Shown here: positions 11,029 through 15,775 of the stretch, one piece after another | Position numbering within the stretch: position 1 is the stretch's first letter | How the letters are laid out: every line of letters begins with the position of its first letter | DNA from: Desulfosarcinaceae bacterium | GTDB taxonomy: Bacteria > Desulfobacterota > Desulfobacteria > Desulfobacterales > Desulfosarcinaceae | Direction: 5' to 3' | Assembly: GCA_030066015.1 (NCBI GenBank) | Contig: JASJCL010000011.1 | Coordinates: 1 to 64,000, forward strand | DNA length: 64,000 nt | Position numbers and translations under genes: made by a program | Notes under the pieces: generated by a model | Database searches by the model: none | The model's input: the letters and a program-made list of their open reading frames with translations, nothing else | Told to the model about the DNA's origin: nothing

Positions 11029-11193
11029 TACCACCACTATACTACTTCGTGCAGGGCATTCCTTAGCGACGCGTGACTCTCACGCCTCGATTAAATAATA
11101 ATTGCGCGATCCCACTCTCATTCGCGCCGCCCCGGCCTACCTTGACGGGGTCATGAGACAGCACACCGTGTACTGTCAATGGGTGCTAACGTG

Positions 11194-11565
11194 ATGTCTA
11201 TTCTCAAACGCTTGATAACGCTACGGGTGCGTAAACAGAGACGCTACAAGGCCAGAGACGGTGTCTACGTCATTTACGATCAGTCCATGTCCAAGAACCA
11301 GATCGACAATATCAGCATGGGCGGCCTCTCCTTCTACTACGTGGACAACGGCATCAAGATTGACAAAGGTTCCTACGAGCTCTCCTTGGTCAATCGTAAC
11401 CGGATCTGCCTCGGCAAGGTGCCCTTCAAGACCGTTTCCGATACGGAGACGGGCGAGATTCTTTTCCGTAACAAACGGGTCAAACGTCAAAGCGTTCGCT
11501 TCGACAACCTCAGCGGCCCCCAAAAGACGCAGCTCAAGGCCATTATCGCCAACTTTACCGAGTAA
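11194..11565 (+). CDS. PilZ domain protein, predicted c-di-GMP receptor
   Basis: A 123-residue basic cytosolic protein. Two PilZ signatures are visible: the arginine-rich RKQRRYKARD near residues 13-22 and DNISMGG (a D/NxSxxG motif) about 20 residues later. Together they bind cyclic di-GMP. No other domain or membrane segment is present, so it is a stand-alone PilZ adaptor whose partner cannot be read. ATG 11194 is chosen; an in-frame ATG at 11179 and a GTG at 11191 are alternatives, and none has a good ribosome site. The next identifiable c-di-GMP element in the window is the riboswitch near 25.1 kb. Confidence 0.75.
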   Translation: MSILKRLITLRVRKQRRYKARDGVYVIYDQSMSKNQIDNISMGGLSFYYVDNGIKIDKGSYELSLVNRNRICLGKVPFKTVSDTETGEILFRNKRVKRQSVRFDNLSGPQKTQLKAIIANFTE

Positions 11566-12167: not shown

Positions 12168-12194
12168 TGTAACCTTTTGCCCACGGAGCCGTTA
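12168..12194 (+). promoter_or_regulatory. ECF-type promoter 1 (lipoprotein gene)
   Basis: TGTAAC at 12168-12173 and CGTTA at 12190-12194 are spaced by 16 bases. The same pair at the same spacing occurs upstream of the Gly/Ser-rich gene and of the sigma factor gene. The form (AAC-containing -35, CGT-containing -10) is typical of group IV (ECF) sigma promoters. It implies a leader of about 110 bases. Confidence 0.7.
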
Positions 12195-12309
12195 ATTTGG
12201 GATACAGTGGCGTACGGCAACTTCATCCTCATCTTCATCGTCGACGCCTGACACCGCCTGTCTGCCGATGCCAATCCATATCGACGCTTTCTAAGATGGA
12301 GGCATGCCC

Positions 12310-12633
12310 ATGTGGCGACCGCTTTTATTGACTTGCATCATATTCCTGGGGCTGTCGGGTTGCGCCCGTCACTACTACCGTGAGGTCAATCACCAGGTGA
12401 CCTTTTACCTGAAACACGACACGGCCTCCGAGGCGCATTTGGCCTGCTCCCTTGACGGGTTTCAGCCACGTCGGGCGACGCTCGCGTCGGGCCGCTGGGA
12501 GGTGACCGTTCCCGCGGACCGGACCTTTCGCTACTTCTACCTCGTGGATGGCGAGCCCTTCACTCCGGCCTGCCGCTTGAAGGAGAACGACGACTTCGGC
12601 GCCCAGAACTGCATTTTTGAGCCCGGCATGTAA
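12310..12633 (+). CDS. Lipoprotein with AMPK/CBM48-like E-set domain
   Basis: A 107-residue protein with a signal peptide and lipobox (LSGC, Cys18), so it is predicted to be lipid-anchored on the envelope side. Residues about 28-104 look like the early-set glycogen-binding domain of AMP-activated kinase and isoamylases: a beta-rich stretch with GRWEVTV, a YLVDG turn and an ending DDFGAQN. The C-terminal part of the membrane protein at 14771-15346 has the same layout (YWEV, YILDG, DDFGGEN), so the two domains are probably homologous. Three cysteines after the lipobox could form a disulfide. GGAGG at 12298-12302 favours ATG 12310 over ATG 12304. It is the first gene behind an ECF-type promoter. 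Binding to a glucan is possible but unproven. Confidence 0.7.
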   Translation: MWRPLLLTCIIFLGLSGCARHYYREVNHQVTFYLKHDTASEAHLACSLDGFQPRRATLASGRWEVTVPADRTFRYFYLVDGEPFTPACRLKENDDFGAQNCIFEPGM

Positions 12634-12655
12634 CCTTTCAAGGCCCAGCCCGTTA
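12629..12655 (+). promoter_or_regulatory. ECF-type promoter 2 (Gly/Ser-rich protein gene)
   Basis: TGTAAC at 12629-12634, overlapping the lipoprotein stop codon, and CGTTA at 12651-12655 with exactly 16 bases between. The TGTAACCTTT block is shared with promoter 1. It lies 35 bases upstream of the next start codon. Confidence 0.7.
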
Positions 12656-12689
12656 TGGGAGTAACACAGCAGCCCAACGGAGGCCCCAA

Positions 12690-13928
12690 ATGAAACGATT
12701 CATCACCACCTTCTTACTATTCCTGCTGGCCACCAGCGGTCCGGTGCTGGCCGTCGATCACGAACCGCTCAGTCAGGAAAACCAGCAGCAGATCCGGCAG
12801 CGCACCCGCGACATGAGCAACGCCGGCGTTCCCGAAGAGCCGGCCAAGAAGATGCTTCGGCAAATGCTGCAGAATCGTTTCCGGGAAGAGAATGTGGAAC
12901 GCGCCCAGCGGATCGTCATGAGGAGTGCCGATACGGGTCTGGCCACCGAGCCGGTGATGAACAAGGCGATGGAGGGCATGGCCAAGCGGGTGGATGAGGA
13001 GCGCATCCTCCAGGCCATGGAGCGGGTCCAGCAGCGGCAGACCTTCAGCCTTCAAATTGCTCGGCGTCTCTGCGAAGATCCCGAAATAGTGCGGGCCATG
13101 GCCGAGGCGGTTTATGACAGCCTCACGGCCGATATGCAGGAGATGGACGTGGAGCGGGTCGCCGAACGCCTGGAGGTGCGCATCCGCCAGCAGACCCGCA
13201 ACGAAGGGGAAGCGCTGGCGCTGCAGACCATGCAGACGGTGCGCACCATGGCGCGCCTGGGGGCCCACAGCATCGATGTGGGTGAAACGGTCTGCCAGGC
13301 CCTCCAGCACCGCTATTCGACCCGCCAGATGCAACAGTTGGGGGCCAGCTTCGCCGACGATGCCCAGCACACCGCTCCCGGCCCGTTGGCCAAGCAATAC
13401 GCCCGTGCACTGGGTAGCGGAGAGGGGATCGGCAGCGCCCACAAGTATGGCCGTGAAGAGGACCACGACTCGGGTGGCCAGGGCAGCGGGTCTACCTCCG
13501 GCAGTGGCGGCAGCGGAAACGGCGCCGGCGGGAGCGAGGGCGGCAGCGGTCAAGGCGGCAGCTCGGGTGCCAATGGCGGCAGTGGCGAAGGCGGCGGCTC
13601 CGGCAGGACGGGAGACGGTGGCGGCAGTAGTGGCAATGACGGTGGCTCCGGCAGCGGTGGCAGCGGCGCCAGTGGGAGTTCGGGCAGTGACAGCGGCAGC
13701 GGTGGTTCAGACGATAGCGGTGCCAACGGGAGTGGCTCCAGTGGGAGTAGCTCCGGTGGTAGCTCGGGCAGCGGCAGCGACAGCGGTTCGGGTGGCGGCC
13801 CCAGCGGAAGCGGCACCAGCGGCAGCGCAGGCAACGGCGGTAGCGGTTCCAGCGGGAGTGGCGCCGGTGGGAGTGGCGCCGGTGGGAGCTCCGGCAGCGG
13901 CAGTGGCGGCTCTGGCAAAGGCAACTGA
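12690..13928 (+). CDS. Exported protein, helical domain plus Gly/Ser-rich tail
   Basis: 412 residues; no family recognised. Residues 1-21 form a signal peptide with likely cleavage after VLA. Residues about 25-240 are predicted alpha-helical, charged and rich in Gln, Arg, Glu and Met. Residues about 261-412 are almost only Gly and Ser with scattered Asp, Asn, Ala and Thr, made of irregular GGSG/GSSG-type units, and end in GSGKGN. There is no membrane anchor or sorting motif at the C terminus. Such tails are flexible and may be surface-exposed or span a polymer layer. The gene has its own copy of the ECF promoter and sits between the lipoprotein and the sigma factor, so it is inferred to be an output of that system. 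Confidence 0.75.
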   Translation: MKRFITTFLLFLLATSGPVLAVDHEPLSQENQQQIRQRTRDMSNAGVPEEPAKKMLRQMLQNRFREENVERAQRIVMRSADTGLATEPVMNKAMEGMAKRVDEERILQAMERVQQRQTFSLQIARRLCEDPEIVRAMAEAVYDSLTADMQEMDVERVAERLEVRIRQQTRNEGEALALQTMQTVRTMARLGAHSIDVGETVCQALQHRYSTRQMQQLGASFADDAQHTAPGPLAKQYARALGSGEGIGSAHKYGREEDHDSGGQGSGSTSGSGGSGNGAGGSEGGSGQGGSSGANGGSGEGGGSGRTGDGGGSSGNDGGSGSGGSGASGSSGSDSGSGGSDDSGANGSGSSGSSSGGSSGSGSDSGSGGGPSGSGTSGSAGNGGSGSSGSGAGGSGAGGSSGSGSGGSGKGN

Positions 13929-13989
13929 TTCGTTTCCGAATCTACATACTGCATCAACACCTGCTACAGCATCTGCCAAGAACCCGGTG

Positions 13990-14135
13990 TCCAGAACCTC
14001 GCTCTCCTCCTTGGCGGCGCCATTGCTCGACTGCTGATTGCGGGCCATGCTCATGTGGCAGTGGATGCACTTCTCCTGAATCACCTGCTTGAGGCCGGCA
14101 TCGGCCTGCGGGGCCACCTCGGCGCTGATCTTCAC
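13990..14135 (-). pseudogene. Possible remnant of a c-type cytochrome
   Basis: On the minus strand, a frame beginning at a GTG (14135) reads as plausible protein and contains a heme-binding CIHCH (bases 14069-14055) within a helix-like context (GLKQVIQEK before it, MSMARNQQ after). Upstream the frame stops at once, and other frames give short protein-like pieces. The stretch then runs into the 3' end of the Gly/Ser gene. It looks like a decayed end of a larger cytochrome gene. One CxxCH motif is weak evidence. Confidence 0.3.
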
Positions 14136-14257
14136 TTGTCAGAAAGGGTCCTTGGCACTCTACCCTACAGGGGGCGTGCCAGACCTGATCGACACGATCC
14201 CATCGAAGGTCATATCATTCAGCTGCGACACGGTAGGTCATTTTCGCCCACGTCACT

Positions 14258-14284
14258 TGTAACGAATATTGCGCCAAAGCGTTA
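14258..14284 (+). promoter_or_regulatory. ECF-type promoter 3 (sigma/anti-sigma operon)
   Basis: TGTAAC at 14258-14263 and CGTTA at 14280-14284, spacer 16, the third copy of this pair in 2.1 kb. It implies autoregulation of the sigma factor. The expected start of transcription is only a few bases before the ATG at 14295, so the mRNA may be nearly leaderless. Confidence 0.72.
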
Positions 14285-14294
14285 TACTACTGAA

Positions 14295-14771
14295 ATGGAC
14301 GACTACAGTCGTTTTTACAGCCGATACAGGGGAAGCGTTTTCGCTTATCTGCTGCGCCTCACCGGGGACTATCAGCTGGCCGGGGATCTCACACAAGAAA
14401 GCTTCACCCGCTGTCTGTCCCGCTACGGCCGCAACGGCTCCAATCCCTCGCTGCTGTTCACCATCGCCCGCAACGCGGCTCTGGACGCGGCCCGTAAGCG
14501 GCGCGAGGAGGCGCTGAGCGGAAACGAGAAGGAGGCCGATGACGCCAACCCGGAGCGGCAGCTGATCCAGAAACAGGCGGTGACGCGCATGCTGGCGGCG
14601 ATCGGCCAACTGCGTTTGGTGGACCGCGAGTTGATCGCCCTGGTGGCCAGCGGGTCCTTGAGCTACCGGGAGATCGGCAAGCTGCTCAAGATCAGCGAGG
14701 CCAATGTCAAGGTTAAGGTGCACCGGGCGCGTTTGCGGCTAAAGGCGATCCTCAACCAAGGGGGGCAGTGA
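14295..14771 (+). CDS. ECF (group IV) RNA polymerase sigma factor
   Basis: 158 residues, the usual size of a minimal ECF factor. The sigma-2 domain (about 5-72) includes YRGSVFAYLLRLTGD, the DLTQESF helix and the LLFTIARNAALDAARKR segment that contacts the -10 element. The sigma-4 domain (about 95-152) has a helix-turn-helix ending SYREIGKLLKISEANVKVKVHRAR. ATG 14295 is chosen because sigma-2 homology starts at once; upstream codons do not look like protein. The next gene overlaps its stop (TGATG), so the two are cotranscribed. Three matching promoters nearby suggest that it drives its own operon, the lipoprotein gene and the Gly/Ser protein gene. Confidence 0.9.
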   Translation: MDDYSRFYSRYRGSVFAYLLRLTGDYQLAGDLTQESFTRCLSRYGRNGSNPSLLFTIARNAALDAARKRREEALSGNEKEADDANPERQLIQKQAVTRMLAAIGQLRLVDRELIALVASGSLSYREIGKLLKISEANVKVKVHRARLRLKAILNQGGQ

Positions 14772-15346
14772 TGGAGATGGACCACGACTACCTCGCCAGC
14801 GTGTATATCGACGACGAGATGGATCTGGACGAAAAGCGGCATTTCGTCGAGAAGGTGCATACAAATGCCGGCTTTTACGCCGAGACGCTGGAGCTGCTGG
14901 ACCAGGAGAAGCTACTTCGGGAAATGCCCGAACTGCCTGCCATTGCGCCCGTAACCGTCTGGCAGCCGTCGCTGCGGGAGCGTCTGGCCGGTCTGCTTCG
15001 CCCGCTGGGATTCGCCACGGCCGGTTTCGCCGCCGCGATATTGGTGCTGTTCACCCTCTTTCAGCCGCCGGCCCCGGCCCTCTGCCACAACCGCTTCGTC
15101 CTGTACCAACCTACCGCCGCCCGGGTGGAGCTGACCGGCTCCTTCATCGACTGGCAGCGGGTGGCCCTGAAGCCAATCGGCAGTTCCGGCTACTGGGAGG
15201 TGCATCTGCGGGTACCCGCCGGTGAGCACCGCTTCGCCTACATCCTGGACGGCAAGCGCCGGGTGGCCGATCCCACCATCCCCACCAGCGAGAAGGACGA
15301 TTTCGGCGGCGAAAACTCTATTCTGCAGGTGACCGACCTCATCTGA
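14771..15346 (+). CDS. Membrane anti-sigma candidate with periplasmic glycogen-binding-like domain
   Basis: 191 residues. Residues 1-77 are cytosolic and begin like anti-sigma domains (DYLASVYIDDEMDLDEKRHF) but lack the zinc motif HxxxCxxC. One membrane helix spans about 78-98. Residues about 107-188 outside the membrane form an AMPK/CBM48-like E-set domain: VELTGSFIDWQ, YWEVHLRVPAG, YILDG, then DDFGGENS. Coupling to the sigma gene (TGATG overlap) plus this topology supports a sensor that holds the sigma factor until its outer domain meets a ligand. The same outer domain in the lipoprotein at 12310 suggests that both see the same ligand or each other. A GTG at 14768 is an alternative start. 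The anti-sigma role is inferred. Confidence 0.75.
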   Translation: MEMDHDYLASVYIDDEMDLDEKRHFVEKVHTNAGFYAETLELLDQEKLLREMPELPAIAPVTVWQPSLRERLAGLLRPLGFATAGFAAAILVLFTLFQPPAPALCHNRFVLYQPTAARVELTGSFIDWQRVALKPIGSSGYWEVHLRVPAGEHRFAYILDGKRRVADPTIPTSEKDDFGGENSILQVTDLI

Positions 15347-15439
15347 GCAGCCTGACAGGATTATCCCCCTCAAATGTGATCCAGGCATTCAGCGGCATAC
15401 CGACGGGTAGCCATTAGAAGTCTCAGAGGGAGTGGCTAA

Positions 15440-15589
15440 CCGTGTTCCTCCATATTGGCTGCGTTCTTCTCATTGGATGCCAACACCTATGGGTACCACG
15501 ATCAGATTTACAAGGACGTACGCCTGACAGCCCATCTAAGGGATCCGGGTAAAAACGCCAATCCCTATCGCTTGCAGACCATTACTTAA
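15440..15589 (+). pseudogene. Protein-like C-terminal fragment, origin unknown
   Basis: A frame with no start of its own ends at TAA 15587-15589. Its last 35 or so codons read like real protein (the piece YGYHDQIYKDVRLTAH, then DPGKNANPYRLQTIT). The frame is closed by TAA at 15437. I do not recognise the family. It is most likely the tail of a deleted gene. Confidence 0.25.
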
Positions 15590-15775
15590 AATAATCGATT
15601 TGAAGACCCTACGATTCATCGTCAACCGCGACCAAAACACCAACACGAATAGATTCCGCCGAATCTTTGAGCCGGACACAGATTCTTCAGATCGCTAAAA
15701 GCACACACGATAGACCGTTTCGCGATATCTCCTCGGACGCGGATCCGTTGACGCCCCTTCGATGCCTGCCAACTA

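Follow-up and report, generated by a model that had tools for sequence, protein, structure and literature searches.

A predicted autoregulated ECF sigma factor/anti-sigma factor switch with an AMPK-type CBM48 domain and a fixed-spacing promoter motif in Desulfobacterota

Genes and sites at the locus

The window, i.e. the whole stretch of 64,000 nucleotides of Desulfosarcinaceae DNA that was analysed, carries on its plus strand a gene (14295-14771) for an ECF sigma factor, as the original prediction had claimed. The product of 158 amino acids matched the Pfam domains Sigma70_r2 (2.5e-10) and Sigma70_r4_2 (3e-9) and the NCBIfam model sigma70-ECF (4e-21), in each case above the cut-off, and it can be placed among the ECF (group 4) factors since it contains only sigma regions 2 and 4, connected by a short linker. 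Orthologues with 43-71% identity occur in some members of the same family and order, and the window genome harbours six additional matches to the ECF query.

The start of the following gene (14771-15346, plus strand) overlaps the stop codon of the sigma gene (TGATG, 14771). It encodes a predicted membrane protein of 191 amino acids with three N-terminal helices, one transmembrane helix and an external C-terminal beta domain of the AMPK-type CBM48 family (Pfam AMPK1_CBM, 4.6e-10). In the AlphaFold2 model (mean pLDDT 88) the helices comprise residues 4-12, 18-27 and 32-50, and they are followed by the transmembrane helix at 67-95. Because of its position, the gene overlap and this layout the protein is predicted to be the cognate anti-sigma factor. 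The Hx3Cx2C zinc motif is absent from the window protein, and zf-HC2, a known anti-sigma domain, matched the N-terminus of only 2 out of 65 homologues; class I anti-sigma factors (ASDI) are characterised by an N-terminal bundle of three helices with a fourth helix and by a gene next to that of the ECF factor. The zinc motif is optional in this class, and anti-sigma domains without zinc are frequent (PMC7406223).

The lipoprotein gene (12304-12633, plus strand) codes for a signal peptide and one further domain. The signal peptide ends in the cysteine of the lipobox LSGC, as is characteristic of bacterial lipoproteins; this residue, Cys20, is invariant (50/50), and Cys90 and Cys103 are conserved as well. 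According to profile comparison the lipoprotein domain is related to the external domain of the anti-sigma factor (98.2% probability, E 2.8e-14). The region 3' of the anti-sigma gene (15347-15760) was considered as a lipoprotein pseudogene and rejected, since in a profile alignment that tolerates frameshifts it scored 19.2, with shuffled sequences at 18.6 +/- 2.4.

Between the lipoprotein and the sigma genes lies the gene of an exported protein, GSR (12690-13928, plus strand), which consists of a signal peptide, an all-helical repeat domain of about 215 residues and a long Gly/Ser tail. The N-terminal domain (window 12690-13442) was modelled with confidence as an all-helical repeat (AlphaFold2 pLDDT 94). 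Comparison with PDB structures yielded no clear relative, the best VIA-align rows being designed helical repeats with Z 9.9 and lower; helical repeats in general would be expected to score as well as this, and the fold gave no family assignment. The PDB sequence search of the helical domain gave no significant match. Two further frames lie close to these genes: a small protein upstream of the lipoprotein promoter (11179-11565, plus strand) with a weak, under cut-off PilZ match (Pfam 0.0012), and, on the minus strand between the Gly/Ser and sigma genes (13960-14135), a frame with the c-type haem motif KQVIQEKCIHCHMSMARNQQ, which resembles a fragment of a cytochrome gene.

The pattern TGTAAC-N16-CGTTA occurs on the plus strand 5' of the lipoprotein gene (promoter 1, 12168-12194), of the GSR gene (promoter 2, 12629-12655) and of the sigma gene (promoter 3, 14258-14284), and these downstream genes code for the products originally named: a lipoprotein with an LSGC lipobox, an exported Gly/Ser-tailed protein and an ECF sigma factor. 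The sites had been described as three identical promoters sharing one 16-base spacer. The spacing is exact at all three and both boxes match throughout, but the identity holds for the boxes only: the spacer sequences are unrelated to each other, and CTTT, usual after AAC, is absent from promoter 3. The assignment of AAC-type -35 and CGT-type -10 elements to ECF sigma factors agrees with the literature, where AAC and CGT boxes as well as positive autoregulation are given as ECF hallmarks (PMC8103513). The -35 box of promoter 2 overlaps the stop codon of the lipoprotein gene (ATG-TAA-C). At promoter 3 only 10 nt separate CGTTA from the start codon of the sigma gene, and no Shine-Dalgarno sequence is present; consequently, if transcription starts 6-8 nt past the -10 box, the sigma message is predicted to be near-leaderless.

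Rarity and conservation of the promoter motif

When spacers of 14-18 bases were allowed, the window contained just these three pairs of TGTAAC and CGTTA, whereas dinucleotide-shuffled sequence gives an expectation of 0.01. The genome-wide pattern search that had been advised with the original prediction, as a check for scattered matches, returned the same three matches only in the whole 5.73 Mb genome, where the reversed-pattern control gave 4 + 8 matches. The relaxed form TGTAAC-N16-CGTT has seven matches in the genome, three of which are the window sites. Sites with a CGTT that is not followed by A mark candidate further targets in the window genome; for instance a TolC-like outer-membrane gene on contig C77 (L160:2172) is preceded by TGTAACCTTT-N12-CGTTG, i.e. 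with 16-base spacing, and might be one of them.

In the roughly 80 Desulfobacterota genomes that were examined, the ECF gene is part of a conserved module together with the genes of the anti-sigma factor, the lipoprotein and the Gly/Ser-tailed exported protein. When named genomes were scanned with the profile of the anti-sigma factor, 130 loci matched, and among the 80 of these that were listed, those named to group belong to Desulfobacterota (e.g. Desulfosarcina, Desulfobacter, Desulfopila, Desulfogranum, Desulfobulbaceae). The anti-sigma protein was detected in 15 of 297 sampled genomes of the phylum, hence the system is patchy in its distribution. The usual gene order is sigma, anti-sigma, lipoprotein and Gly/Ser protein; the window order is rearranged, the lipoprotein and Gly/Ser genes preceding the sigma gene, and the moved pair has a site of its own. 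The two genes likewise precede the sigma gene in Desulfoprunum benzoelyticum (L085), where a similar site stands 5' of the lipoprotein gene.

Across the loci [TC]GTAAC-N16-CGTT was found no more than 170 bp upstream of the ECF gene in 58 of 79 cases and of the Gly/Ser gene in 42 of 82, and at this distance it precedes none of the anti-sigma genes. The spacer is 16 bases long in all 101 sites that stand before ECF or GSR genes, with no site having 10-15 or 17-23. In front of the ECF orthologues of other genomes the site lies about 37 bp 5' of the start codon, and the distance from the -10 box to the start codon is mostly 10 nt across the loci. A Shine-Dalgarno-like stretch precedes only 7 of 80 ECF genes, compared with 64 of 81 anti-sigma and 57 of 74 Gly/Ser genes. 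At 12 more loci, where the ECF gene has no site of its own, one lies farther off, 0.4-2.1 kb 5' of this gene and on its strand, at the head of a gene run that leads into the ECF gene and with which the latter is probably co-transcribed; the gene directly behind it is for example that of the Gly/Ser protein, of a haem protein or of a small exported peptide. Altogether the site stands directly upstream of the sigma gene or heads its gene run at 70 of 79 loci, and at the other nine it is degraded or not recognisable before the ECF gene; the retention of the motif in relatives that keep the genes, raised with the original prediction, is thus borne out by 58 direct and 12 head-of-run sites.

The same picture emerged from 72 upstream sequences that were aligned at the ECF start codon and taken regardless of whether they contain the motif: no other upstream stretch is as conserved as the two boxes, which average 0.42 and 0.44 bits, compared with 0.07 for the remaining positions. 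Even the overlap with the lipoprotein gene recurs, the stop codon of this gene lying inside the -35 box of the Gly/Ser promoter at 34 of the 40 loci with that site. Such a predicted self-regulating switch with the same site spacing was found in dozens of related mud-dwelling bacteria.

The putative sensor domain and the exported candidate targets

The AMPK1_CBM domain (PF16561) was matched in all 65 anti-sigma homologues. The structural comparison of the external domain with the glycogen-binding domain of the AMPK beta subunit (4yee) gave Z 13.8 and an rmsd of 1.9 over 83 residues, and their relationship was also recognized at the level of sequence profiles (E 2.2e-9). The glycan contacts of AMPK, W100, K126, W133, L146 and N150, are partly retained: among the 65 homologues the position of W100 is W in 65, that of L146 is F in 64 and that of N150 is N in 64, whereas K and W are not maintained at the positions of K126 and W133. 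The fold is alike and three of the five contact positions are retained or similar, yet in the present protein the domain forms one chain with a predicted anti-sigma factor and should lie outside the inner membrane. Since two of the five positions are changed, the ligand of the anti-sigma factor may not be a glycan.

The motif is not confined to the module. In relatives it was also found before small exported proteins with Gly-rich (GPGDGTGN-type) or KDGSC repeats, often encoded divergently from the sigma gene, and before haem proteins. Signal-peptide-like N-termini, called by a simple heuristic, were seen among the non-sigma products behind the motif in 36 of 37 GSR, 25 of 26 Gly-rich, 5 of 5 haem and 3 of 3 KDGSC proteins, as well as in three of seven unclassified calls, some of which are wrong reading frames; the control value was 133 of 490 long ORFs. 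With the Gly-rich repeat and MbnH/MauG-type di-haem proteins included, the predicted output is nearly all exported.

Divergent small exported Gly-rich proteins, many of the GPGDGTGN type, stand behind the motif in L097-L099, L113, L115, L121, L131, L142, L151 and L155, and QDRKKDGSC-type repeat segments occur in small exported proteins behind it in L114, L140, L143 and L134. No NCBIfam family was found for the examples of these two groups that were searched (two in the case of KDGSC). A GPGDGTGN Gly-rich protein was not found in the window genome, a weak result, as the query is of low complexity and had no positive control. Haem-protein genes with the same promoter motif were noted in L114, L117, L145, L150, L156 and L169; those of L117, L145, L150 and L156 share the strand of the sigma gene and stand ahead of it, and that of L169 lies apart from it. 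The likeness to MbnH/MauG di-haem enzymes comes from the motif-bearing gene of L145, whose product, searched as a 242-residue piece, matched both TIGR04039 (MbnH family, 4.3e-19) and TIGR03791 (MauG) with scores far under the curated cut-offs. No MbnH/MauG-type gene with the exact motif is present in the window genome.

Model of the switch, alternatives and meaning

On the basis of these data we consider it very probable that the locus represents an autoregulated ECF sigma factor/membrane anti-sigma factor switch of Desulfobacterota. It is strongly supported that the three sites mark the local regulon of this sigma factor: the original suggestion that a sigma factor and its likely targets stand at one locus is backed by the conservation of the module and of the motif and by the fixed spacing, as far as comparative sequence analysis can tell. 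The comparison adds to this suggestion the predicted anti-sigma factor with its CBM48-type domain, the paralogous domain of the lipoprotein, the depth of the conservation and a wider set of candidate targets among exported Gly-rich and haem proteins. According to the proposed mechanism the N-terminal helices of the anti-sigma factor would hold the sigma factor in the cytoplasm, and the AMPK-type CBM48 domain would sample the periplasm for a cue. The cue might release the sigma factor, most likely through regulated proteolysis, and the free sigma factor would transcribe from TGTAAC-N16-CGTTA its own operon, giving positive feedback, together with the genes for the lipoprotein and for GSR. Since the lipoprotein is a copy of the sensor domain, it has a probable role in feedback at the sensor, either competing for or presenting the same ligand, or shielding the anti-sigma factor.

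The three sites could also be real ECF promoters whose main reader is a different ECF sigma factor of the genome, the one encoded here being a bystander or sharer. Six other ECF matches in the genome make cross-reading possible, all the more as other ECF genes of relatives lie near a similar TGTAACCTTT -35 box, in L021, L028 and L033 for example near TGTAACCTTT-N17-CGTC or a similar sequence. The boxes of those genes differ, however, in the -10 element (CGTC) and in the 17-base spacing, the site keeps a fixed distance from the present ECF gene or heads its run at 70 of 79 loci, and every exact site of the window genome falls at this locus; we therefore regard such a reading as quite improbable. 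That the repetition of the motif is due to chance or to recent duplication is a practically negligible explanation: one small gene is indeed flanked by two of the three sites, but the number expected by chance is minute, the spacers differ, which already spoke against simple duplication in the original prediction, and the invariant spacing over dozens of species contradicts it.

Within the preferred reading of an autoregulated switch it should be considered what the CBM48 domain senses. Direct sensing of an envelope polysaccharide through a glycan-binding surface is conceivable, and we lean somewhat against it: the fold and the nearly invariant W, F and N at the W100, L146 and N150 positions are in line with it, while the loss of the K126 and W133 equivalents argues in the other direction. 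Moreover, CBM48-type folds can act as protein-contact modules too. A more extended proposal, in which this fold outside the inner membrane serves as the anti-sigma sensor of a polysaccharide in the envelope or outside the cell, the regulon forms an extracellular matrix of exported Gly-rich repeat proteins, in some species modified or cross-linked by an MbnH/MauG-type di-haem enzyme, and the lipoprotein, as the second sensor copy, tunes the response, appears rather doubtful.

The proposed switch shares with class I membrane anti-sigma systems of the RpoE-RseA and SigW-RsiW type the two-domain sigma factor, the AAC and CGT boxes, the overlapping downstream anti-sigma gene, the single transmembrane helix and the predicted positive autoregulation. 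It differs from them in the external AMPK-type CBM48 domain, in the missing zinc motif of the window protein and in the local regulon of exported Gly-rich proteins. The likeness to RseA/RseB of E. coli is one of outline, in that an envelope protein from the regulon could bind the sensor domain of the anti-sigma factor and exert feedback; a difference is that the present lipoprotein is itself paralogous to the sensor domain. In a literature search with subscription journals mostly outside its scope no anti-sigma factor with a CBM48-type sensor or such a regulon was described. Autoregulated ECF/anti-sigma pairs are known, and it is the combination of sensor and output that appears to be undescribed.

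To our knowledge a large share of the ECF sigma groups is without any studied member. In the present case the sequences of Desulfobacterota, among them those of culturable Desulfosarcina, Desulfobacter and Desulfogranum species, reveal the promoter, the anti-sigma factor, the sensor domain and a consistent set of exported targets, which makes both the signal and the output directly testable. The promoter with its fixed 16-base spacer is a sharp tool for finding the remaining members of the regulon, and with this system an AMPK-type CBM48 domain would join the sensor modules known from anti-sigma factors.
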